From positions 1 to 51,863 of IMG/VR virus record IMGVR_UViG_3300027749_000151: a stretch of DNA of 51,863 bases, one strand, 5' to 3'. Position numbers and translations under genes: made by a program. The stretch's first letter is position 1; the number at the start of each line of letters is the position of its first letter. Below the pieces are notes generated by a model. It did no database searches. It saw nothing but the letters and a program-made list of their open reading frames with translations, and was not told the origin of the DNA. This document shows, one piece after another, positions 3,394 through 48,463 of this stretch. Source of the DNA: a virus.

Positions 3394-6300
3394 ATGACAT
3401 TCGACCTTGGTGTAATTAAACGTCAGCGATATACAAGTCCCACCTATTCTGCTATAGGTGGGACTATTTCCTATTACACCAGCGGTGGTGTTGCTTATAC
3501 TGTACATTCTTTTTTATCAACGTATGCTAGCAGTCTTTTAACAATATTTGCTCCAATACAGGCTGATATATTATTAGTAGGTGGCGGTCAAGGCGGAAAC
3601 ACATCATATGGTGGTCAGAATTATGGACCTGGTGGAGGTGCAGGACAAGTACGTACAACCAGCACTACATTATTGTCCGGACAATATATAGTCACGATCG
3701 GAGCCGGCGGCGCCTCCGGACTCGGTGTTGGTGGTGCAAGTTCCATTGTAGGTAGTACCATATCATATGCAACAACTGCTACTGGTGGCTCTGGTAGTAC
3801 AGGCTTAGGTGCCAGTGGAGCATATGGAACTAGTAGTGACCCTACTGGTGGTAACGGTATTACCAATGATTATTTAAATGGTTCTGCCACTTATTATGGT
3901 GGTGGTGGTGGTGGTGTTGTTGGTAGTTACGGCGGCGCAAGATCTGGTGGTCTAGGAGGTGGAGGTAACGGCGGTGGTGCTCCGGGACCAGCGAATCCAA
4001 CTAGCGGAACAGGCGGTACTGGCGGGGGTGGCGGCGGCGCCAACGATCCCAACGTTAACGGCACAGTGTACGGCGGCTTTGGTGGATCTGGTATTATTGT
4101 TATAAGATATCCAACCCCAGTTGTTAGCCTAGTTCCACTAAATGATCCATATTTTAATTATGTTAGTCTTTTACTCAGCAATCAAACAACCAATGTAACC
4201 ACTCCTACACCTATATATTCTAATGCAATACCCAGAGTTGAATATATAGCGGTAGCAGGCGGCGGCGCTGCTGGCCAAATGCAAGGCGGTGGAAATGCTT
4301 ATCACTTCGGTGGAGGAGGTGGCGCAGGCGGCGCTGTCATTGGTACACTTACTAATGTATTACTTTCATCGTCTAATATATTTGTTATTACAGTGGGAGC
4401 AGGTGGCACAGGCTCGTTGACCCAGGGTTCAGGAAATGGGCAAAATTCTTCAATGGTTAATCGATCTATCTGGAATTTTACCACTGCATCTATTATTGCA
4501 TATGGTGGGGGTCAGGGAGGTCAGGGCGCTTCTAGTAATAACCCTAGTGCCACTGTTGGTCTTCCTGGTGGTTCAGGCGGAGGTGGCGGTGGTGATTACG
4601 GTGGCGGCGGCGTTTCTGGTGGGGCTACTACTCAAAGTTCACTAGTGGATGTAAGTAAGGGAAATGCCGGTGGCGCGGGCGGCGGTCGCGGTGCGACTTT
4701 TAACTATGCCATTGGTGGTGGTGGCGCAGGTGCTGGTGGTACAGGCCAAGCAGGCGCTACAGATAGTGGTGGTGCTGGCGGTGCTGGATATGTTTGGCTT
4801 AACGGTAGTACATACGCAGCCGGCGGTGCTAGCAATGGCGCCGGAGTGCCCGGTACTGCTTATACAGGCAATGGTGGTAATGGTAATAGTGTTAGTACAG
4901 CACCTGGACCAAACGGAGGAAGTGGAATTGTTATACTTCGTTATTCTGGAACCAATGTATTGGCCTCAGGTGGAACTATTTCCACAGCATCAAATTATGT
5001 ATATCATACATTTACAGCAAGTTCTGTGCTTACATTCGTCGACGGTGCCTTAGGTGCAGTTACAGGTGCAGGTACTATATCATCACCTATAAAATACCTG
5101 TTAATTGGCGGTGGTGGTAGTGGCGGTACTCCAAATAGTGTCAACGGTGGCGGTGGCGGTGCTGGCGGTCTTATTACAGGTACTTTTACTATAACAAATA
5201 TTAATAATTTGTTAACAATAACTGTAGGCAGTGGTGGTAGCAATGCTAATGGCGGTAATTCTTCAATTATTGGCAATTATGTAACTAAAATAGCCTATGG
5301 TGGCGGACGTGGTGGAAATGGTAGTGACTTTGGTGGTAACGGTACTACCGCAGGTTCTGCAGGTGGTTCAGGTGGTGGTGGTGGCGCTCAATATGCTAGT
5401 ACAGGTCAACCCGGCGGAGCAGCAACACAACCTAGTTCAATTTATGGTGGTTATGGTAATGCAGGTGGTTCAGGTGGAAATAGTGGCGGTGGTGGAGGTG
5501 CGGCCAGTAATGGCGCTGGCGTTTATATTGCTGGCCTTGGATTATTCATCAATACACCAAGTTCTTCATATTCAAAAGGTTATGCGGTTGGCGGTCCAGG
5601 AAATACTGGTGCCGCAACTGCATATACTGGTAATGGTGGCGGCGGCGCAGGTGGTACTGGTGGTTCAGGTATTGCCATACTTTGGGAACCTGCTGTTAAT
5701 ACAATGCCTACATTACTTGGAAATCCTACTATAATTACAACTAGTGGTTATAGGGTTTATGTATATAATAGTTCAGGCGGAATAGTGTTTAATCCATCAT
5801 TGAGCAATAATCTAGTGACAGATAGTAGTGCTAATAGTTATACAGCATCGCCGAGCAATAGCCCTACGCAAGGATCATTTAATCCGTACTCTGCAAATTC
5901 TAGTATGTATTTTAATGGAAGTAGTAATCTAGTAATACCAAATAGTGCATCATACGGCACAACAGGATTAAGTTTAAGCAGTGGTGATTTTACCATTGAA
6001 GGTTGGGTATATTTTAATGATATATCATCTGGACAATTAATAGGACACGCTGGAAGTGCATGGAAAATACAAATTAGTTCTTCTGGTATTTTAGCATATT
6101 ATCTTAGTTCAAATGGCAGTACTTTCAATATAGCCAATGCTGTATCAATAGGTTCAGTTAGTGCTGGAAGATGGTATCATTTTGCATTGTTACGTAGTGG
6201 ATCGACATTCACTTCATATTTAAATGGTGTGGCAGGAACACCCACTACCAATGCATCAAGTTTATATGCATACACTAATAGTTTAACAATAGGTAATGTA

Positions 6301-13518: not shown

Positions 13519-14475
13519 ATGAAGAAGATTTTAGGCATATTATTACTAATACCGGCACTAGCATTTGCTTGGCAACCAAACAAACCCATTACTGTAGTAT
13601 TTCCAAACGGCCCAGGTGCGGGCAACGAAATCAGTTTTCGTATTGTAGCGGATATGATAGAAAAGAATACAGGTGCTAAGTTTGTATCCGAATATAAACC
13701 AGGTGCTGATGGTAATCTGGCCACTAACCATTTTAATACTGTGGCAAATGATGGATATACTATATCAGTACCTGCTTGTAATAGTCAATGGGTAACAGCC
13801 GAAGTATGGTATCCACAAATGATTAAATTTAACATATTTGATTTCGAACCTGTAGCCAATATTGCTAAAAGTCCTTTAGCATTTTGGGCCACTCCTAACA
13901 GTAAAGTAAACACACCTGAAGAATTAATAAATGAAATTAGATCAAAACAACGACAAATTAATTTTGCTATCGGCGGGGGTGGACATAAACTTGCTGTAGA
14001 ATACTTAACCACTAAACTAAATGTGCCGGGTGGAGATCGAGTTGAAACTGCTATGTATAAGGGCCCAGCACAGGCTTTGATGGATGTAATGGGAGGGCAT
14101 GTTGAATTTGGAGTTACACCGGTAGCAGTAGGATATCCACACCTACAAGCAGGTAAACTAAAACTAATCGGAATTGCCGGAGAAGTTCCGTTACGCGGTT
14201 TGGAAAAGGTTCCTTTAATGAAAGATTACATACCGGGATTAAACATATATGGTTGCTGGAATTTAATATTACCCAAAGGAACTCCTAAAGATATACAGGA
14301 ATGGTATAGAACAAACTTTATTCCTGCTATCAATAGCAAAGAAGCAAAAGAAAAGTTTGATGAGAATATGATGTTTATAACTCCTAAAGAGCATACTCCT
14401 GAGGGATTAAATAATAGTATGACAAAATTAAGAAACGATTGGCAACCTATTGCCAGAAAGTTCAAACCAGAATGA
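13519..14475 (+). CDS. Bug/TctC-family periplasmic solute-binding protein
   Basis: 318 residues, full length for the tripartite tricarboxylate transporter substrate-binding (Bug/TctC) family. A Sec signal peptide (MKKILGILLLIPALAFA) is followed by the family's typical opening 'WQPNKPITVVFPNGPGAGNE', matching the 'P-kPI-lvvPf-pGg--D' pattern. A TAMYKGPAQALMDVMGGHVEFG segment matches the family's 'pYkG-apa--dl-gG-v---f' ligand-site region. In bacteria these proteins deliver carboxylates such as citrate, or other small acids, to a membrane permease. No permease gene is in the window, so the phage protein would have to work with a host transporter or act alone. The family is greatly expanded in betaproteobacteria. 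Confidence 0.9.
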   Translation: MKKILGILLLIPALAFAWQPNKPITVVFPNGPGAGNEISFRIVADMIEKNTGAKFVSEYKPGADGNLATNHFNTVANDGYTISVPACNSQWVTAEVWYPQMIKFNIFDFEPVANIAKSPLAFWATPNSKVNTPEELINEIRSKQRQINFAIGGGGHKLAVEYLTTKLNVPGGDRVETAMYKGPAQALMDVMGGHVEFGVTPVAVGYPHLQAGKLKLIGIAGEVPLRGLEKVPLMKDYIPGLNIYGCWNLILPKGTPKDIQEWYRTNFIPAINSKEAKEKFDENMMFITPKEHTPEGLNNSMTKLRNDWQPIARKFKPE

Positions 14476-32710: not shown

Positions 32711-33142
32711 ATGTTGGACTGTTTAATTCTAGGTGATAGCATAGCCGTAGGTACAGCCAAATATAGACCAGAATGTGTAGCCTATGCTCGTGGCGGTATC
32801 AATAGCCAACAATGGCGTAAGAAATATCTCGAAAGTGATCAAGGTGCCTTGCCTGTTGCCAAGACTGTAATCATCAGTTTGGGTTCTAACGATCACACAG
32901 GTGTAAGAACTATTTTAGAACTACAACAGATACGCAAGGCTGTTAAAGCCGATCGTGTATTTTGGATACTTCCGCACGGTAACAATCCATCTAGTAGTTT
33001 AGAAATAGATTGGATACAAAGTTTTGTTAAAGTAGTTGCTGGTGAAAATGGTGATATAGTATTACCAATTACCCGTGTGCAAACAGATAATATTCATCCA
33101 AGTTGGGCTGGATATAAAGAACTTGCAGACGCTACAAAATAA
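32711..33142 (+). CDS. SGNH/GDSL-type hydrolase
   Basis: 143 residues with the SGNH blocks in order: GDS (S10 as nucleophile) in 'LILGDSIAVG', a Gly in 'ARGGI', GSND (N60) in 'IISLGSND', and D126..H129 in 'TDNIHPSW'. The family hydrolyses esters, for example acetyl groups on polysaccharides or lipids. No signal peptide, so it acts in the cytoplasm or on the virion. It directly precedes the tmRNA gene. Confidence 0.85.
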   Translation: MLDCLILGDSIAVGTAKYRPECVAYARGGINSQQWRKKYLESDQGALPVAKTVIISLGSNDHTGVRTILELQQIRKAVKADRVFWILPHGNNPSSSLEIDWIQSFVKVVAGENGDIVLPITRVQTDNIHPSWAGYKELADATK

Positions 33143-33222
33143 ATATATACTGTAAGTTAATAGTTGTAATCCCTTCAAAGAGGATGTGTTCAAGACGCCG
33201 GTTCGAATCCGGCCAGGTCCAC

Positions 33223-33305
33223 CATAAACACATAGACCGTGCATTATCGTCATTTGACGGTGGTAAACAGAATGACGTAACTGGAACCCTTGTTATGTGT
33301 TTATG
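33223..33305 (+). other. tmRNA intervening segment closed by a 12-bp stem
   Basis: CATAAACACATA (33223-33234) pairs perfectly with TATGTGTTTATG (33294-33305). An inner stem CGTCATT (33248-33254)/AATGACG (33271-33277) lies inside. The stem joins the CCA end to the 5' end of the coding piece and should be removed by RNase P and 3'-end processing enzymes. Confidence 0.75.
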
Positions 33306-33393
33306 ATGGGCCTGCTCTGGTAATCGATTGGGCAAATAGTCAGCGACGGCAACTCGGTAGATGACGACCGTTAATCGCATAAAATCAATAACT

Positions 33394-33426
33394 GCAAACG
33401 ACGAGTTATATTCCATGGCCGCTTAG
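33394..33426 (+). other. tmRNA tag reading frame ANDELYSMAA-stop
   Basis: GCA AAC GAC GAG, then TTA TAT TCC, then ATG GCC GCT TAG. The start AND is typical of proteobacterial tags, and the end (hydrophobic-Ala-Ala) fits ClpX/ClpA degron rules, with Met instead of the usual Leu. Confidence 0.88.
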
Positions 33427-33468
33427 GCTTTGGTGAGGTAGGAAATACCTTATTACCAAAACAACCAG

Positions 33469-33486
33469 AACCCGCTTCGGCGGGTT
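33469..33486 (+). terminator. tmRNA terminator
   Basis: AACCCGC (33469-33475), TTCG tetraloop, GCGGGTT (33480-33486), then a T-rich tail. Confidence 0.88.
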
Positions 33487-33535
33487 TCTTTTTGATTCTT
33501 GTAAACTTTTTATCAGGCTACCGCGTTATATATAT

Positions 33536-34249: not shown

Positions 34250-34293
34250 ATAGTATGGTCGTAAGACTGTATAAAACTAAAGGAAATTTAAAT

Positions 34294-35181
34294 ATGAAAA
34301 AACTTGCAATATTTGCATTATCAATCGGTCTAATGGGATTCGCCCAAGCCGATGTCTCCGTTTATGGAATGGCTCGTGTCTATGAAGAATCATCTACTGT
34401 TGGCACAGCAGCATCTGTAACATCTTTAACCAATGACAAAAGCCGTATCGGTTTTAAAGCCTCTGACGCTATTGGCAATGGTTTGACAGCGTTTGCCGTT
34501 GTTGAAACCAACGTTGGTGTTGATGCTCCAGCAGCCAGCACATTAGGAGATCGTACCGCTCTTGTTGGCCTAACACACCAGCTGGGATCAATTGGTTTTG
34601 GCCGTGACAAAACTGCGTTAACCAAATCATTGGATTCGTTCGATGCTATGGGCGGTGATTTGTTTGGATCTAGTGCGGCCGCTATTCACTCCTATCAAGG
34701 AACACGTTTGAGCAATACAGCATTTGTATCTGCAACACTTGTTCAAGGACTTACTGGTAAAGTTGAATTAGCCAACAGCGAAGTTGCTGGTACTCCAAAT
34801 CCACAAGTTTATAGCCTAGTATATTCTACTGGTCCAATCTCTGCTACCTATGCTCGTTTTGACAATGGAACAACCAGCGTAAGCGATGCAGTTGGTGCCA
34901 AGTTTGAAATTGCCAAAACAGGTACAACTGTTTTTGGTCTATACTCTGACAACAAAGTAGCCAATGTAACCAGTCAAGGTAAGAGCATGGGTGTTACTCA
35001 AACTGTAACTCCGACTCTATCTGCTATGGCCAGTTATGGTGAGAACGGTGGTCTTAAGGCTTATAACTTAGGTGCTAACTATGCTTTGGGTAAAAATACT
35101 AAAGTATTGGCTCGTTACTTGAAAGAGACAGCAGCCACAGATACCACACGTTATGGTGCTGGTCTAGAATACAGTTTCTAA
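34294..35181 (+). CDS. Gram-negative outer-membrane porin (Porin_4/OmpC-like)
   Basis: 295 residues. The signal peptide MKKLAIFALSIGLMGFAQA is followed by 'DVSVYGMARVYEES', the usual first strand of Neisseria/Burkholderiales porins. Family landmarks follow: 'SRIGFKASDAIGNGLTAFAVVET', 'RTALVGLTHQLGSIGFGRD', an L3-like region and the C-terminal Phe in 'YGAGLEYSF', needed for BAM recognition. At about 295 residues it is shorter than typical family members (330-400). It is transcribed from its own promoter and terminated by a strong hairpin. The start at 34294 has AAAGGAAA; the longer upstream frame lacks a signal peptide. Confidence 0.92.
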   Translation: MKKLAIFALSIGLMGFAQADVSVYGMARVYEESSTVGTAASVTSLTNDKSRIGFKASDAIGNGLTAFAVVETNVGVDAPAASTLGDRTALVGLTHQLGSIGFGRDKTALTKSLDSFDAMGGDLFGSSAAAIHSYQGTRLSNTAFVSATLVQGLTGKVELANSEVAGTPNPQVYSLVYSTGPISATYARFDNGTTSVSDAVGAKFEIAKTGTTVFGLYSDNKVANVTSQGKSMGVTQTVTPTLSAMASYGENGGLKAYNLGANYALGKNTKVLARYLKETAATDTTRYGAGLEYSF

Positions 35182-37790: not shown

Positions 37791-38185
37791 TGGAAGGCAA
37801 ACTTACACTTATCACGCCTCCTGACATTTTTGAAAATGAATCATACAGTATATTGTTTGTTCATTTAAATGATGAAGATCAAGAAAAAGTTAGTCAATGG
37901 TTCGCTAATTCTGAAATAAAAGAAAATGTAAACATTTATTTTTATTCGGGCGAAGTTGATATACCTTGGTTTTTTCACGCCATGGCCCGTTCTGAATATA
38001 AGTACATTGATTTAGATAATTTGAATAATATAACCTCAGCGTTGAGTGGTTATATGTTAGGTAAAAAAAATACCTATTACAAAACAAATGATGAAAATAC
38101 TTCAGCCGTGTTCCATTATATAAATCAAAATAGAATAACTAATATAGAAAACTTTTTACAAAGAGCATTTAATGACAAAAATTAA
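37787..38185 (+). CDS. Hypothetical phage protein upstream of clpX
   Basis: 132 residues; start overlaps the previous stop (ATGATG). 'YSILFVHLNDEDQEKVSQWF' and 'VNIYFYSGEVDIPWFFHAMARSEYKYID' are distinct. The sequence resembles a small protein I recall from T4-like marine phages. No catalytic motif. Its 3' end overlaps clpX by 14 bases, so it is co-translated with it. Confidence 0.7.
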   Translation: MMEGKLTLITPPDIFENESYSILFVHLNDEDQEKVSQWFANSEIKENVNIYFYSGEVDIPWFFHAMARSEYKYIDLDNLNNITSALSGYMLGKKNTYYKTNDENTSAVFHYINQNRITNIENFLQRAFNDKN

Positions 38186-39404
38186 TAACACACATGTCTG
38201 CGATTTCTGTGGTAAGAGCAAAGAAGATGTAGAAAAACTTATTGTAGGAGAAAATGCAGCCGTATGTAACGATTGCGTTGAACTATGTGTCGATATATTA
38301 AAAGACGAAAAAATAAAACAATTTCCCAAAGAAGCCAAATTATTAAATCCCGTTAAGATCAAAGAGTATTTAGATCTATATGTTATAGGTCAAGACAATG
38401 CTAAAATTGCATTAAGTGTAGCAGTTAGTCAGCATTTTAAACGTATTAATAATCCAACAACAGAATTAGAAATTGAAAAAACTAATGTATTAATGTTAGG
38501 TCCAACCGGGTGTGGCAAAACTATGATGGCACGTAAAATTGCCGATTACTTGGATCTCCCATTTGCTATTTGCGATGCTACTGGTATCACCGAAGCGGGA
38601 TATGTTGGTGATGATGTAGAAAGTATTCTTACTCGTTTAATTAACGAGGCAGATGGAGATCTTGAAAAAGCCAGCATGGGAATCGTATATATTGACGAAA
38701 TTGATAAGATTGCCAGGAAAGGTGAAAGTGCCAGTATTACCAGAGATGTTAGTGGTGAAGGTGTACAACAGGCGTTATTAAAAATGATTGAGGGATCTAT
38801 TATGCGTATCCCTTCATCCAGTAAACGCAAACATCCCGGTAGTGAAATGCAAGAAATTGATACCAGAGGTATATTGTTTATTTGCGGTGGAGCATTTGTA
38901 GGTATTGATAAAATTATTCAACATCGTACAGAAGCCAAGTCAGTTGGATTTCATGCTAACGTAGCAAATGATACTGATACAAATAAAGTATATCAAGATC
39001 TTACCACTAAAGATTTAATTAAATTTGGATTGATACCTGAATTTGTCGGGCGGTTTGGACTATGTATAAATGTTGAGGAATTAACTGTTAACCAATTAGT
39101 TAGTGTTCTTAAAGAACCAAAGAATAGTTTAATAAAACAATACCAATACCTTTTTGAATTAGATGGAATTAAACTTAATTTTGATGATGATGCATTAACT
39201 GAAGTTGCTAGTAGGGCTAAAGAACTTAAAACAAATGCTCGAGGGTTAAAAAACATTATAGAAAAAGCACTATTGCCCTATCAATTCGATGCTGTTGATC
39301 TTGTAGAACGTGGGTTGAAATCAATACGGATAAGTAAAGATACGATAATCGGCAAACCGGCCGTAATGATTTTTGATAAAAAGAAAAATGAGCAAAAACA
39401 ATAA
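38172..39404 (+). CDS. clpX: AAA+ unfoldase ClpX
   Basis: 410 residues, nearly full length and similar to bacterial ClpX across its whole length. The N-terminal zinc-binding domain has C10, C13, C32 and C35. Walker A is GPTGCGKT (about 110-117), the pore loop GYVG (about 144), Walker [10 protein letters not shown] (about 173), the RKH loop (about 218), and the ClpP-contacting IGF loop is VGF (about 258). The C-terminal region matches the family ('LIPEFVGRF', '[13 protein letters not shown]'). It unfolds tagged substrates and feeds them to a ClpP peptidase. No clpP is present, so the host ClpP would be used. Near the phage tmRNA and bS21 genes. Confidence 0.95.
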
Positions 39405-44536: not shown

Positions 44537-44790
44537 TGTCAAGTACCGTACGCATAGCATGGGGTCCTAAATTCGACGAGAGTCAACAGTGGAATGAGGT
44601 ATGTGCTTGGGCCGTTGAACGTTTTGGCCTGCCTGGGGATAGATTCCAAAGTCACGCCAATATCAATTATATGGACTTTGTTTTCAAAAACAACAAAGAT
44701 GCATTAATGATGGCCCTGATGTTCAATGCTCCCATTGTGCCCGACGATGATCTCACCGTAGAACACGTTGGGCGTCTGTTCAATGCTTAA
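44536..44790 (+). CDS. Member 1 of small-protein array (divergent TMFxLKW family)
   Basis: 84 residues, starting at the last base of the previous stop (TAATG). 'WGPKFDESQQWNEVCAWAVERFGLPGDRFQSHANINYMDFVFKNNKDALMMALMF' keeps the general pattern of a Trp/Phe-rich domain ending in an 'F-F---KDAL-ALM' strand, related to the C-terminal strand of the following genes. First and most diverged of six. Confidence 0.68.
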   Translation: MSSTVRIAWGPKFDESQQWNEVCAWAVERFGLPGDRFQSHANINYMDFVFKNNKDALMMALMFNAPIVPDDDLTVEHVGRLFNA

Positions 44791-45085
44791 GAAACGTGCT
44801 ATGGCTAACGCAAAATGGGTATCCGAATTAGCAGAACAATGGATCAATGAAATCAACGTGAAACGCCTTGAAACTGGTTACGCTGACAATCAACCTAAAT
44901 GGCCCTATTGGGTCCGACCATACAACTATGGTATCGGGGAGTGGCAGGATATGAATCAGTGGATGTTCAACACAATGGGTGATAATAATTGGCTTACAGA
45001 AAATGCTCGTTGGGTGGGCAGTAATTCAAAGTACTGGTTCCGTGATGAACGTGATCGCACTATGTTTATTTTGAAGTGGTCATGA
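44783..45085 (+). CDS. Member 2 of TMFxLKW small-protein array
   Basis: 100 residues from MLKKRAMANAKW (alternate start MANAK at 44801). 'VGSNSKYWFRDERDRTMFILKWS' at the end is the array signature. Trp-rich (8 Trp). Overlaps the next gene as ATGA. Confidence 0.7.
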   Translation: MLKKRAMANAKWVSELAEQWINEINVKRLETGYADNQPKWPYWVRPYNYGIGEWQDMNQWMFNTMGDNNWLTENARWVGSNSKYWFRDERDRTMFILKWS

Positions 45086-45300
45086 TGAAAACTCCATTTT
45101 ATAAATTAAATGATCTTCCAAGGCTGGAAAGGCAATTAGCACCATTTGTTTATAAAATGATGGAATTACCAGCAGAGGATCGAAGAGCAGAATCACATAA
45201 AATATTGGATAAATTTAATATATCAGTTGATAATGACATGGAATGGTGCATTTGGAAAACTGATAAAGATTATACAATGTTTGTTTTGAAGTGGTTATGA
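45082..45300 (+). CDS. Member 3 of TMFxLKW small-protein array
   Basis: 72 residues, with 'WKTDKDYTMFVLKWL' at the end. The N-terminal part differs from member 2 ('MMKTPFYKLNDLPRLERQL'), so only the C-terminal signature is shared. ATGATG junction with the previous gene. Confidence 0.68.
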   Translation: MMKTPFYKLNDLPRLERQLAPFVYKMMELPAEDRRAESHKILDKFNISVDNDMEWCIWKTDKDYTMFVLKWL

Positions 45301-45593
45301 GTAATATAGAAGATCAAATCTTAACTAAGATTGCTAAACGAATGCAAAAAGATATTGATGAGCAGGTTATGTCAAAGTGGATGAATAAACCAAGTATTAA
45401 AATACACGACCAAAGTACGGTCGATGGTGAGACTTGGTATACCATCGGATGCTATGATGATACATCAAAATGGTTGCGATCACAGAATCGAGAATTGTGG
45501 CACGAACACGTCGAACACATATGGGCTGGATATCATAACACATTTGACATACACGAAAAACTTTATACTATGATAGCATTGAAATGGTCGTAA
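45297..45593 (+). CDS. Member 4 of TMFxLKW small-protein array
   Basis: 98 residues from MSNIEDQILTKIAKRM. 'HEKLYTMIALKWS' at the end keeps the signature. A Trp/His-rich middle ('WLRSQNRELWHEHVEHIWAGY') distinguishes it. ATGA junction. Confidence 0.68.
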   Translation: MSNIEDQILTKIAKRMQKDIDEQVMSKWMNKPSIKIHDQSTVDGETWYTIGCYDDTSKWLRSQNRELWHEHVEHIWAGYHNTFDIHEKLYTMIALKWS

Positions 45594-45811
45594 AAAATCC
45601 TACATTAATCATTGATTACGGTCTCCGAAGAGTCCGACTGACTCATAGCACTCCAGCGGCTCATGCGCTCACACCCGACCGTGAGTTGTGGGATCAAAGC
45701 CAATGGTGTTCGGAAACTTTCAAATCTGAACATTGTGTCTATCACGACGGTAGGTGGTATTTTAAACGACCGCGGGACAAGACTATGTTTATTTTAAAGT
45801 GGAGTTCATAA
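45584..45811 (+). CDS. Member 5 of TMFxLKW small-protein array
   Basis: 75 residues. 'YHDGRWYFKRPRDKTMFILKWSS' at the end. Its ATG lies inside the sequence encoding the LKWS end of the previous protein, so the two genes are interlocked. Confidence 0.68.
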   Translation: MVVKNPTLIIDYGLRRVRLTHSTPAAHALTPDRELWDQSQWCSETFKSEHCVYHDGRWYFKRPRDKTMFILKWSS

Positions 45812-46107
45812 TGGCAACAACAATACCCGGCTTTCCTAATATTAGTACAAGCGTGTTCAATGGAACAACATTTGAACCAGAACTTTCGCCAATGAGTAAG
45901 GGCAAGGCTAAAAGTTGGCTTGGAGAATTTCATTGGGTATCCCTGCCTGTTACTGATAAAAACAAGTACGACGATACCACGACTCCTGCGCTAGCATGGT
46001 GTCAAGAACACTTTGGCAAGAGTGGAGCACGTTGGTTTGAGAAAGATAAAAAATTCTATTTCAAAGATGAACGAGATGTTACTATGTTTATATTAAGATT
46101 TTCGTAA
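45811..46107 (+). CDS. Member 6 of TMFxLKW small-protein array
   Basis: 98 residues from MATTIPGFPNIST. 'KKFYFKDERDVTMFILRFS' at the end. TAATG overlap with member 5. A longer in-frame start upstream lies within the previous gene and is rejected. Confidence 0.7.
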   Translation: MATTIPGFPNISTSVFNGTTFEPELSPMSKGKAKSWLGEFHWVSLPVTDKNKYDDTTTPALAWCQEHFGKSGARWFEKDKKFYFKDERDVTMFILRFS

Positions 46108-46486: not shown

Positions 46487-46921
46487 ATGAATCAAATAGT
46501 ACGTTTCGACACCAACGCTCTAAACAGAGCACTTCTAGGTTTTGATACAATGTTTAACGATTTTGAAAGTCGTTTTGCAAATCAACTCAAAGACAACTAC
46601 CCCCCTTACAATATCGTTAAACACAATGACGACTCTTACGAGTTAGAAATTGCTGTAACAGGATTTGCTAAGGATGAAGTTACAGTTGAGATCGATCAAA
46701 ATCAATTGATTGTTAAGGGTGTTCGCAATAAGAACAATGATATAACTTCGGAATTTCTACATCGTGGATTAGCATTCCGAGACTTTACTCGTTCATGGAC
46801 ACTTGCTGAACATATGGAAGTAGGTGAAGGGATCATCAAGAATGGTGTGCTTACAATTGAATTAAAGCGTATTGTTCCTGATGCGTTAAAACCTCGAGTC
46901 CTTAAACTTAAGGGCGAATAA
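46487..46921 (+). CDS. hsp20: Small heat-shock protein (Hsp20/alpha-crystallin, IbpA-like)
   Basis: 144 residues. The IbpA-type start ('NALNRALLGFDTMFNDF') is followed by the alpha-crystallin domain ('YNIVKHNDDSYELEIAVTGFAKDEVTVEI', 'LIVKGVRNK', 'FLHRGLAFRDFTRSWTL') and the closing 'IKNGVLTIELKRIVP' strand. It holds unfolded proteins, and such genes occur in many cyanophages and pelagiphages, where it probably protects assembly. It precedes ClpS. Confidence 0.95.
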   Translation: MNQIVRFDTNALNRALLGFDTMFNDFESRFANQLKDNYPPYNIVKHNDDSYELEIAVTGFAKDEVTVEIDQNQLIVKGVRNKNNDITSEFLHRGLAFRDFTRSWTLAEHMEVGEGIIKNGVLTIELKRIVPDALKPRVLKLKGE

Positions 46922-46926
46922 AACCC

Positions 46927-46942
46927 GGGGGCTCAGGCCCCC
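46927..46942 (+). terminator. Terminator-like hairpin after hsp20
   Basis: GGGGGC (46927-46932), loop TCAG, GCCCCC (46937-46942), followed by TCTTATT. The T-run is weak, so it may attenuate rather than stop. Confidence 0.65.
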
Positions 46943-46959
46943 TCTTATTAAATAATATT

Positions 46960-47268
46960 ATGAGCACCGATACCCCTGTGATTGAAAAGAAAAAAGTAAC
47001 ATCCCGTTTGGTTAAAGAACCTGGGAAATTTAAAGTTATTGTTTGCAATGATGATGTTACTCCTATGGAGTTTGTTATTGCCATGTTGGTTAGTGTGTTT
47101 AGACATGATGAAAAAAATGCAATGAAATTAACATTAGAGGTACATCATAAAGGAAGTGCTGTAGTAGGTGTATATAGTTATGAAATTGCAGAACAAAAAG
47201 CAGTTGACGGAGTCAATTTAGCAAGGGCACATGGATATCCTTTGATAATTAAGATAGAAGAAGAATAA
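46960..47268 (+). CDS. clpS: N-degron adaptor ClpS
   Basis: 102 residues. Pocket residues of E. coli ClpS are kept: N30-D31-D32 ('VCNDDVTPMEFV'), M36 and H62 ('EVHHKGSAVVGV'). The C-terminal 'EIAEQKAVDGVNLARAHGYPLIIKIEEE' matches the family. ClpS presents proteins with N-terminal Leu, Phe, Tyr or Trp to ClpAP. No clpA is present in the window, so it would redirect the host ClpAP. Confidence 0.95.
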   Translation: MSTDTPVIEKKKVTSRLVKEPGKFKVIVCNDDVTPMEFVIAMLVSVFRHDEKNAMKLTLEVHHKGSAVVGVYSYEIAEQKAVDGVNLARAHGYPLIIKIEEE

Positions 47269-47277
47269 GAGATTACA

Positions 47278-47823
47278 ATGAGTTTAAAAGAACTAACCGC
47301 TGATAGACATCAACAAGCGGAAGATACCCTTTTTATGAAGGCAGTTTTTGCAAAAACTCTGCCCTTTGATTTGTGGGTAGATTTTACTTATCAAAAACAA
47401 CTTTGGTACAAAGAAATTGAACATGCTGCTCGAGAAGCAGGGCTATTAAATGCAATGCCGCCGGGCTTTGAACGTGCAGGATTAATCATGGATGACTACG
47501 AAGCCATGGATAAACCTGTAGGAAGTTTTAATACCTATAAAGAACAGACCAAAGAGTATGTTAGTTATATACGAACATTAGGTGATCCTACTCGTATTAT
47601 GGCACATCTTTATACTTGGCACATGGGTGACCTACATGGTGGTCAAATGATTAAGAAGATTGTGGAAGCCCCACACTCACATTTAGAGTTTGAAGATCGT
47701 GCCGAGTTAATTAAAACTGTACGTACTATGCTGTCAGACGATATGGCCGTTGAAGCCAACATAGCCTTTGAATGGGCAATTAAAATAATGGAATCATATG
47801 ACAGCAGTTTGGGACAAAATTGA
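47278..47823 (+). CDS. Heme oxygenase
   Basis: 181 residues. The proximal heme ligand is H11 in 'DRHQQAEDT' (HO family: 'H--AE'). The distal helix has 'MGDLHGGQMIKK' (about 117-128), matching the 'GDLSGG' signature of heme oxygenases. The enzyme opens heme to biliverdin, releasing iron and CO, with electrons from ferredoxin or a reductase. It overlaps the bilin-reductase gene by 26 bases, a strong pathway coupling. Confidence 0.9.
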   Translation: MSLKELTADRHQQAEDTLFMKAVFAKTLPFDLWVDFTYQKQLWYKEIEHAAREAGLLNAMPPGFERAGLIMDDYEAMDKPVGSFNTYKEQTKEYVSYIRTLGDPTRIMAHLYTWHMGDLHGGQMIKKIVEAPHSHLEFEDRAELIKTVRTMLSDDMAVEANIAFEWAIKIMESYDSSLGQN

Positions 47824-48463
47824 AGAATTAGCCAAGAAGTTTGAAGATCGATTCAATGCTACCGGCGAACCAATAACTGGTAATTTAGATTACGAGTGGC
47901 ATAATCAACTTTGGTCAAGCCCTAGATATCGTAGAGCACACGTAGAAATCGTGGACAATAGAGAAAGTCACAATATATACATTTTACATTGTACAGTATT
48001 TCCACATTTCAACGATCCTAGTCCTATTTTTGGGTTTGATGCTGTATGCGGTCCAAACAAAATTACAGGTGCATTCTGTGATTATAGTTCAGCAGGCGAT
48101 AGCACACATCCTATGATGCGTTGGTTTGCTAACGAAGGACTATATTATAATTGGGAAAAAAATAGAAACCTGCCTGAGTGGGCAAGTAGTATATTCAGCC
48201 CTGCAATGGTTGCCGCAGGTAATGTAAGAATAGGCGAAGAATTAGACAATTTATGTGAATTAGCACTACGTACATTGGATTATTATCTAAAAAACGTGGG
48301 AAATACGCAGCAAGATCTAGCAGATTATCACATGGCACAGAATCGTTATTGTCACTATCAAAAGCAGAATCCACACGTTATACGCAGTATGGTTAGTATG
48401 GGTGTAGAAGAATCTAAAATGAAACGTTTTGTCAGCGAAGTCCTGTTTCCAGAAGTAGTATAA
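47798..48463 (+). CDS. Ferredoxin-dependent bilin reductase (PcyX/PebS/PcyA family)
   Basis: 221 residues. Family motifs: 'YRRAHVEIVDN', 'SPIFGFDAVCGPNKITGAFCDYS' with the catalytic-type Asp81 (PcyA D105 equivalent), a His64 17 residues before it (spacing of the PcyA His88-Asp105 pair), 'WASSIFSPAM' and a C-terminal 'YCHYQKQNPH-IRSM' followed by 'SEVLFP' as in PcyA and PebS. It reduces biliverdin with electrons from ferredoxin; the product could be phycocyanobilin, phycoerythrobilin or another bilin. Cyanophages encode PebS and other phages encode PcyX, so the product must be tested. Confidence 0.88.
   Translation: MTAVWDKIEELAKKFEDRFNATGEPITGNLDYEWHNQLWSSPRYRRAHVEIVDNRESHNIYILHCTVFPHFNDPSPIFGFDAVCGPNKITGAFCDYSSAGDSTHPMMRWFANEGLYYNWEKNRNLPEWASSIFSPAMVAAGNVRIGEELDNLCELALRTLDYYLKNVGNTQQDLADYHMAQNRYCHYQKQNPHVIRSMVSMGVEESKMKRFVSEVLFPEVV

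Follow-up and report, generated by a model that had tools for sequence, protein, structure and literature searches.

A predicted phage pathway from heme to phycocyanobilin in a probable betaproteobacterial host

The 51,863-nt virus record IMGVR_UViG_3300027749_000151, analysed over its full length (the window), carries a gene for a heme oxygenase (HO) that runs into a gene for a ferredoxin-dependent bilin reductase (FDBR), behind genes for a small chaperone and a ClpS adaptor. The features of this locus are as follows.

46487..46921, + strand: Hsp20/alpha-crystallin small chaperone (PF00011, E 9.2e-15)
46927..46942, + strand: GC-rich terminator-like hairpin in the gap between hsp20 and clpS
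46960..47268, + strand: ClpS adaptor (PF02617, E 1.1e-27), 9 nt upstream of the HO start
47278..47823, + strand: HO, 181 aa (PF01126, E 2.5e-13), with His11 as proximal ligand, Asp118 and GGQ at 121-123
47798..47823, + strand: 26-bp stretch shared by the 3′ end of HO and the 5′ end of FDBR
47798..48463, + strand: FDBR, 221 aa (PF05996, E 3.7e-20), with His48/Glu50/His64/Asp81

The matches to Heme_oxygenase (HO) and Fe_bilin_red (FDBR) have E-values that pass the curated Pfam cut-offs. The motifs read by the initial annotation (GDLHGGQ and His11 in HO; His64, FGFDAV with Asp81, and SEVLFP in FDBR) are all present in the two ORFs, whose coordinates also give exactly the 26-bp overlap that it described. 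Glu50, the hsp20 and clpS genes just before HO and a tmRNA elsewhere in the window come in addition to what that annotation noted. The overlap has the same length in the closest relatives (L002-L006) and is 20 bp in many others; overall, 102 of 123 distinct HO-FDBR pairs show an overlap, which is an upper bound given that ORF starts were set mechanically. We infer that this overlap couples the translation of the two genes. Comparison with relatives gives HO a dN/dS of 0.04-0.16 and FDBR one of 0.07-0.16, and both are therefore maintained: they are intact proteins under purifying selection, not chance ORFs.

Active sites, phylogeny and predicted product

The AlphaFold model of HO (pLDDT 94.9) matches rat HO-1 with Z 22.1 and an rmsd of 2.5 over 179 residues. 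His11, Gly117, Asp118, Gly121, Gly122 and Gln123 are conserved, and the catalytic columns are near-invariant among 58 phage HOs. The protein thus has the Pfam family, the fold, the proximal His and the distal Gly/Asp motif of the HO-1 type, and we predict from sequence and model that it is a heme oxygenase of this type that would cleave heme at the alpha position to give biliverdin.

The FDBR model (pLDDT 93.5) has the PcyA/PcyX fold. Its best structural match is PcyA bound to biliverdin (2d1e; Z 24.4, rmsd 2.5, 214 residues), and it aligns with PcyX (5owg) with Z 22.6 and rmsd 1.5 over 172 residues. The comparison of His and Asp residues that the initial annotation had proposed places His48/Glu50/His64/Asp81 on H74/E76/H88/D105 of Synechocystis PcyA. 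The counterpart of Glu50 in PcyX is the residue numbered Asp55 in the literature, at the product-deciding position (chain residue 63 in the 5owg alignment, with an inferred offset of 8). The Pfam domain, the fold and the central Asp place the protein in the FDBR family. Within it, Glu50, His64 and Asp81 reproduce the Glu76, His88 and Asp105 of PcyA; the Asp that PcyX has at the Glu76 site is lacking, and His64 stands where PebS has Asn in place of His88. An alignment of 138 distinct FDBR rows shows barely any variation at sites 48, 64 and 81 (Asp81 is present in all 138). At site 50, by contrast, 73 rows have Asp, 46 have Glu and 11 have Ser; most of the remainder have Asn, Gln, His or Lys.

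Rockwell et al. describe Glu76 as a residue that only PcyA has, that reduction of the 18-vinyl group requires and that PcyX lacks (PMC10151467), and the FDBR of the freshwater phage CB_2, which is without Asp55, gave phycocyanobilin in vitro (Wegner et al. 2024, PMC11480375).

A tree of FDBRs, built with site 50 excluded from the alignment, places the window protein within a Glu-type phage clade (25 rows, support 100/99) nested in a larger Glu clade (33 rows, 96/86). An all-Asp clade (26 rows, 99/99) contains the proven PcyX together with the FDBR of the Pelagibacter phage Mosig and excludes the window FDBR, and a quick tree of the 138 rows likewise parts it from PcyX. PcyA of cyanobacteria and cyanophages forms a separate branch, the branching order of the deeper phage branches is weak, and P-SSM2 PebS does not cluster with the window protein, PebS being placed as an outgroup joined by a very long branch only. 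Because FDBR lies outside the clade of proven PcyX and carries the Glu of PcyA and not the Asp of PcyX, we predict that its product is most likely phycocyanobilin, a better prediction than phycoerythrobilin; the step from Glu50 to this product draws on analogy with cyanobacterial PcyA. The suggestion that its relatives are PcyX holds for the wider phage and alphaproteobacterial branch, but the Glu and the separate clade speak against it for the protein itself, and as a statement about product the PcyX label is probably wrong.

In L192 (IMGVR_UViG_3300009159_004776), two overlapping tandem FDBR genes lie 3′ of HO at positions 4515-5856; the first is Asp-type and falls in the PcyX clade, and the second is Glu-type and falls in the window's clade. 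The phage FDBRs form a series of natural variants at a single catalytic site, and the L192 genome combines both main states. Within-clade conservation of the product-deciding residue suggests that the bilin itself may also matter. It is possible, if doubtful, that betaproteobacterial phages share an hsp20-clpS-HO-FDBR cassette with repeated single-residue switches (Glu, Asp, Ser, Asn, Gln, His), such that different phages, and L192 alone with its two reductases, make different bilins in phycobilisome-free hosts. If true, selection would act on the bilin itself and not on iron alone.

A proposed pathway and its purpose

We propose that HO and FDBR probably constitute one small phage pathway that leads from heme to phycocyanobilin in a probable betaproteobacterial host. 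HO would open host heme with O2 and electrons, yielding biliverdin IXalpha, CO and Fe2+; FDBR would then take electrons from a host [2Fe-2S] ferredoxin for a four-electron reduction of biliverdin, with PcyA-like chemistry in which the 18-vinyl group of the D-ring is reduced first, via Glu50, and the A-ring second, most likely giving phycocyanobilin. The flux from heme through biliverdin to a reduced bilin that the initial annotation suggested is well supported, as a predicted activity, by the families, folds and catalytic residues of the two proteins. Bacterial relatives of FDBR amount to just two contigs from metagenome-assembled genomes (MAGs), L079 and L080 (labelled Neomarinimicrobiota and Rickettsiales), with the gene order hsp20-clpS-HO-FDBR; these loci are probably phage DNA in MAG bins. 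FDBR was found on no plasmid, and a sample of 397 other genomes from the phylum of the Rickettsiales MAG yielded none either. Given its absence from these 397 genomes, the host probably owes the bilin step to the phage, and the electrons must come from host ferredoxin.

Pairs of HO with PcyA or PcyX in phages of non-cyanobacteria, including the bog phage CB_2 that makes phycocyanobilin, were published in 2024 (PMC11480375); the view that host context and use are both open therefore still stands for the use, but such pairs in phages of non-phototrophs, and phycocyanobilin from one of them, had already been described. Likened by its published description and not by sequence, CB_2 (vHemO/vPcyA with valaS) resembles the window in having HO with a four-electron FDBR without Asp55 and a proposed non-cyanobacterial host, but its alaS is a broken cassette and its proposed host is alphaproteobacterial (PMC11480375). 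The hemO-pcyA-alaS island of Bradyrhizobium ORS278, likened by published description only, also combines HO with a phycocyanobilin-forming PcyA in a proteobacterium, but is chromosomal and adjoins a phytochrome gene (PMC11480375). Mosig has an overlapping HO-FDBR pair with 38% FDBR identity to the window; upstream, however, are ferrochelatase and 2OG-Fe(II) oxygenases and not hsp20-clpS. PcyX_EBK42635 (5owg) shares the FDBR fold but has Asp at the product-deciding site and lies in a separate clade. PcyA of cyanobacteria and cyanophages has the full H74/E76/H88/D105 set and includes the best structural match, but is only 23-29% identical and sits on its own branch, and the window pair is without phycobilisome context. 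The purpose of reduced bilins in phages of non-phototrophic bacteria is a question that the field itself has posed (PMC11480375). To this the window adds a lead to a betaproteobacterial host and a clade with an equivalent of PcyA Glu76, beyond the published marine PcyX. In the searchable papers we did not find the Glu-type clade, the site-50 series, the hsp20-clpS context, the link to a betaproteobacterial tmRNA or the tandem Asp/Glu reductases.

Tentatively, our first choice of purpose is iron release with clearance of biliverdin. Rapid turnover of heme during infection would provide free iron, for example for the phage's class Ia ribonucleotide reductase, whose NrdA and NrdB genes are present in the window, and FDBR would serve to remove biliverdin from HO. 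Iron as a purpose fails on its own to account for the conserved FDBR, because the release of Fe2+ needs HO only.

A possible but rather less likely purpose is the supply of a chromophore or signal: a phytochrome of the host, or some other protein that binds bilins, would take up the pigment, and the host's light or redox signalling would be reprogrammed. The adjacent Asp-type and Glu-type reductases of L192, which look as though two bilins were wanted, are consistent with this; against it, bacteriophytochromes normally use biliverdin itself, and a phytochrome was not found among the scanned window genes. The HO and PcyA of CB_2 did assemble a working Cph1 phytochrome (PMC11480375), which argues for such a role. 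Which bilin is made, and what for, is directly testable with a few purified enzymes.

The predicted product has an alternative of its own, in which FDBR is a true PcyX. As in marine phages, 15,16-dihydrobiliverdin would then be the intermediate and phycoerythrobilin the product, with Glu50 making no difference to the outcome. We consider this unlikely. The best match of FDBR in the PDB by sequence is indeed PcyX_EBK42635 (5owg, E 4.5e-50) and not PcyA, and HO is paired with FDBR as in Mosig; set against these are the Glu where PcyX has its specific Asp55, the published tie of that Glu to PcyA chemistry (PMC10151467) and the well-supported separate clade.

The hsp20-clpS neighbourhood

The order hsp20, clpS, HO, FDBR is found in 31 of 31 window-type relatives (L002-L031 and L071, found via the FDBR search), with hsp20 in the same place in each. 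The hairpin between hsp20 and clpS, identified by a terminator scan and by single-sequence folds of the gap across loci, keeps its position in most loci while its stem sequence changes. ClpS residues N30, D31, T34, P35 and H62 are retained in 92-99% of 100 phage ClpS proteins. Mosig and the other Asp-type contigs from the FDBR search are without nearby hsp20 and clpS, with the exception of L027; Asp-type FDBRs also occur 3′ of clpS, as seen in a clpS-only search and in the HO search. The clpS-only search returned 52 distinct phage clpS genes, with hsp20 upstream in 48 of the 50 that could be judged and HO nearby in 31 of the 52, a count biased by a clpS query taken from an HO-bearing phage. 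At loci without HO, the hsp20-hairpin-clpS stretch is followed by genes for an IMP dehydrogenase, a fatty acid desaturase or a weakly sialyltransferase-like protein. Because clpS also precedes these other metabolic genes, the arrangement looks like a fixed hsp20-clpS pair with a slot for metabolic cargo, of which HO-FDBR is a frequent occupant.

A different reading gives ClpS a part in heme control: phage ClpS would speed or block the Clp-dependent turnover of the host's glutamyl-tRNA reductase while HO and FDBR drain heme, resetting the whole tetrapyrrole flux. The single gene order in the 31 relatives and the proximity of HO to so many phage clpS genes favour it, as do the alaS genes in 13 of 36 related records (no alaS turned up in the closest relatives of the window, among them a 112.9-kb record); Clp-dependent turnover of this reductase is also known, via ClpS in plants (PMC6597238). 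The other cargo downstream of clpS weakens the idea of ClpS as a dedicated heme gene, however, the hairpin parts hsp20 from clpS, and the query bias affects the count, which together make this reading quite improbable. Our literature search found no paper on heme oxygenase in connection with ClpS or Hsp20 of phages. A T4-type late promoter was also considered; the motif TATAAATA occurs 9 times in the window against 9.6 expected, which is chance frequency. Elsewhere in the window (38172-39404), this ClpS-encoding phage has a gene for a ClpX-like AAA ATPase with a zinc finger (PF06689, PF07724).

The host

A clue to the host lies upstream of the locus in the window.

33110..33489, + strand: permuted betaproteobacterial-type tmRNA (RF01850 beta_tmRNA, E 9.9e-43, the best of its clan; ARAGORN), tag ANDELYSMAA

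The beta_tmRNA model scores above its cut-off in at least 14 of 50 related records. Genes for psbA and a Fer2 [2Fe-2S] ferredoxin were found in none of 49 related records, absences that are soft in that these records are fragments; both were detected in the cyanophage control P-SSM2. The initial annotation had proposed a non-cyanobacterial, betaproteobacterial host on the strength of a porin and a Bug-type substrate-binding protein. Both genes are real (porin, 34255-35181, PF13609; Bug/TctC binding protein, 13519-14475, PF03401), and its proposal now has stronger support from the tmRNA and from the lack of psbA and Fer2 genes among the 49 related records. As a host clue the porin was uninformative, with no phage match, one weak plasmid match (Cupriavidus) and other genomes at low identity; the TctC protein has its best plasmid match in Comamonas, yet many taxa match, which makes it a weak clue. 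A porin together with a TctC-type substrate-binding protein is unusual cargo for a phage.

We infer that the phage most likely infects a betaproteobacterium that lacks phycobilisomes, although the phage tmRNA may stem from an earlier host. That the two genes are a cyanophage pair serving phycobilisomes is very improbable, and we rejected a cyanophage origin: FDBR genes of this kind are best known in cyanophages, but the window FDBR is merely 24-29% identical to cyanophage FDBRs, the tmRNA fits the betaproteobacterial and not the cyanobacterial Rfam model, and no psbA or ferredoxin gene was found in the 49 related records.

A profile search of the relatives for pmoC (PF04896) had no match, and the controls were likewise unmatched. 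More than 20 tRNA genes form an array in the closest long relative (L252-L253, 112.9 kb). The row of small ORFs that the window has at 44768-46107 (starting at 44768, 45076, 45291, 45584 and 45799) is a tandem gene family, with the similar tails MFILKWS, MFVLKWL, MIALKWS and MFILRFS.
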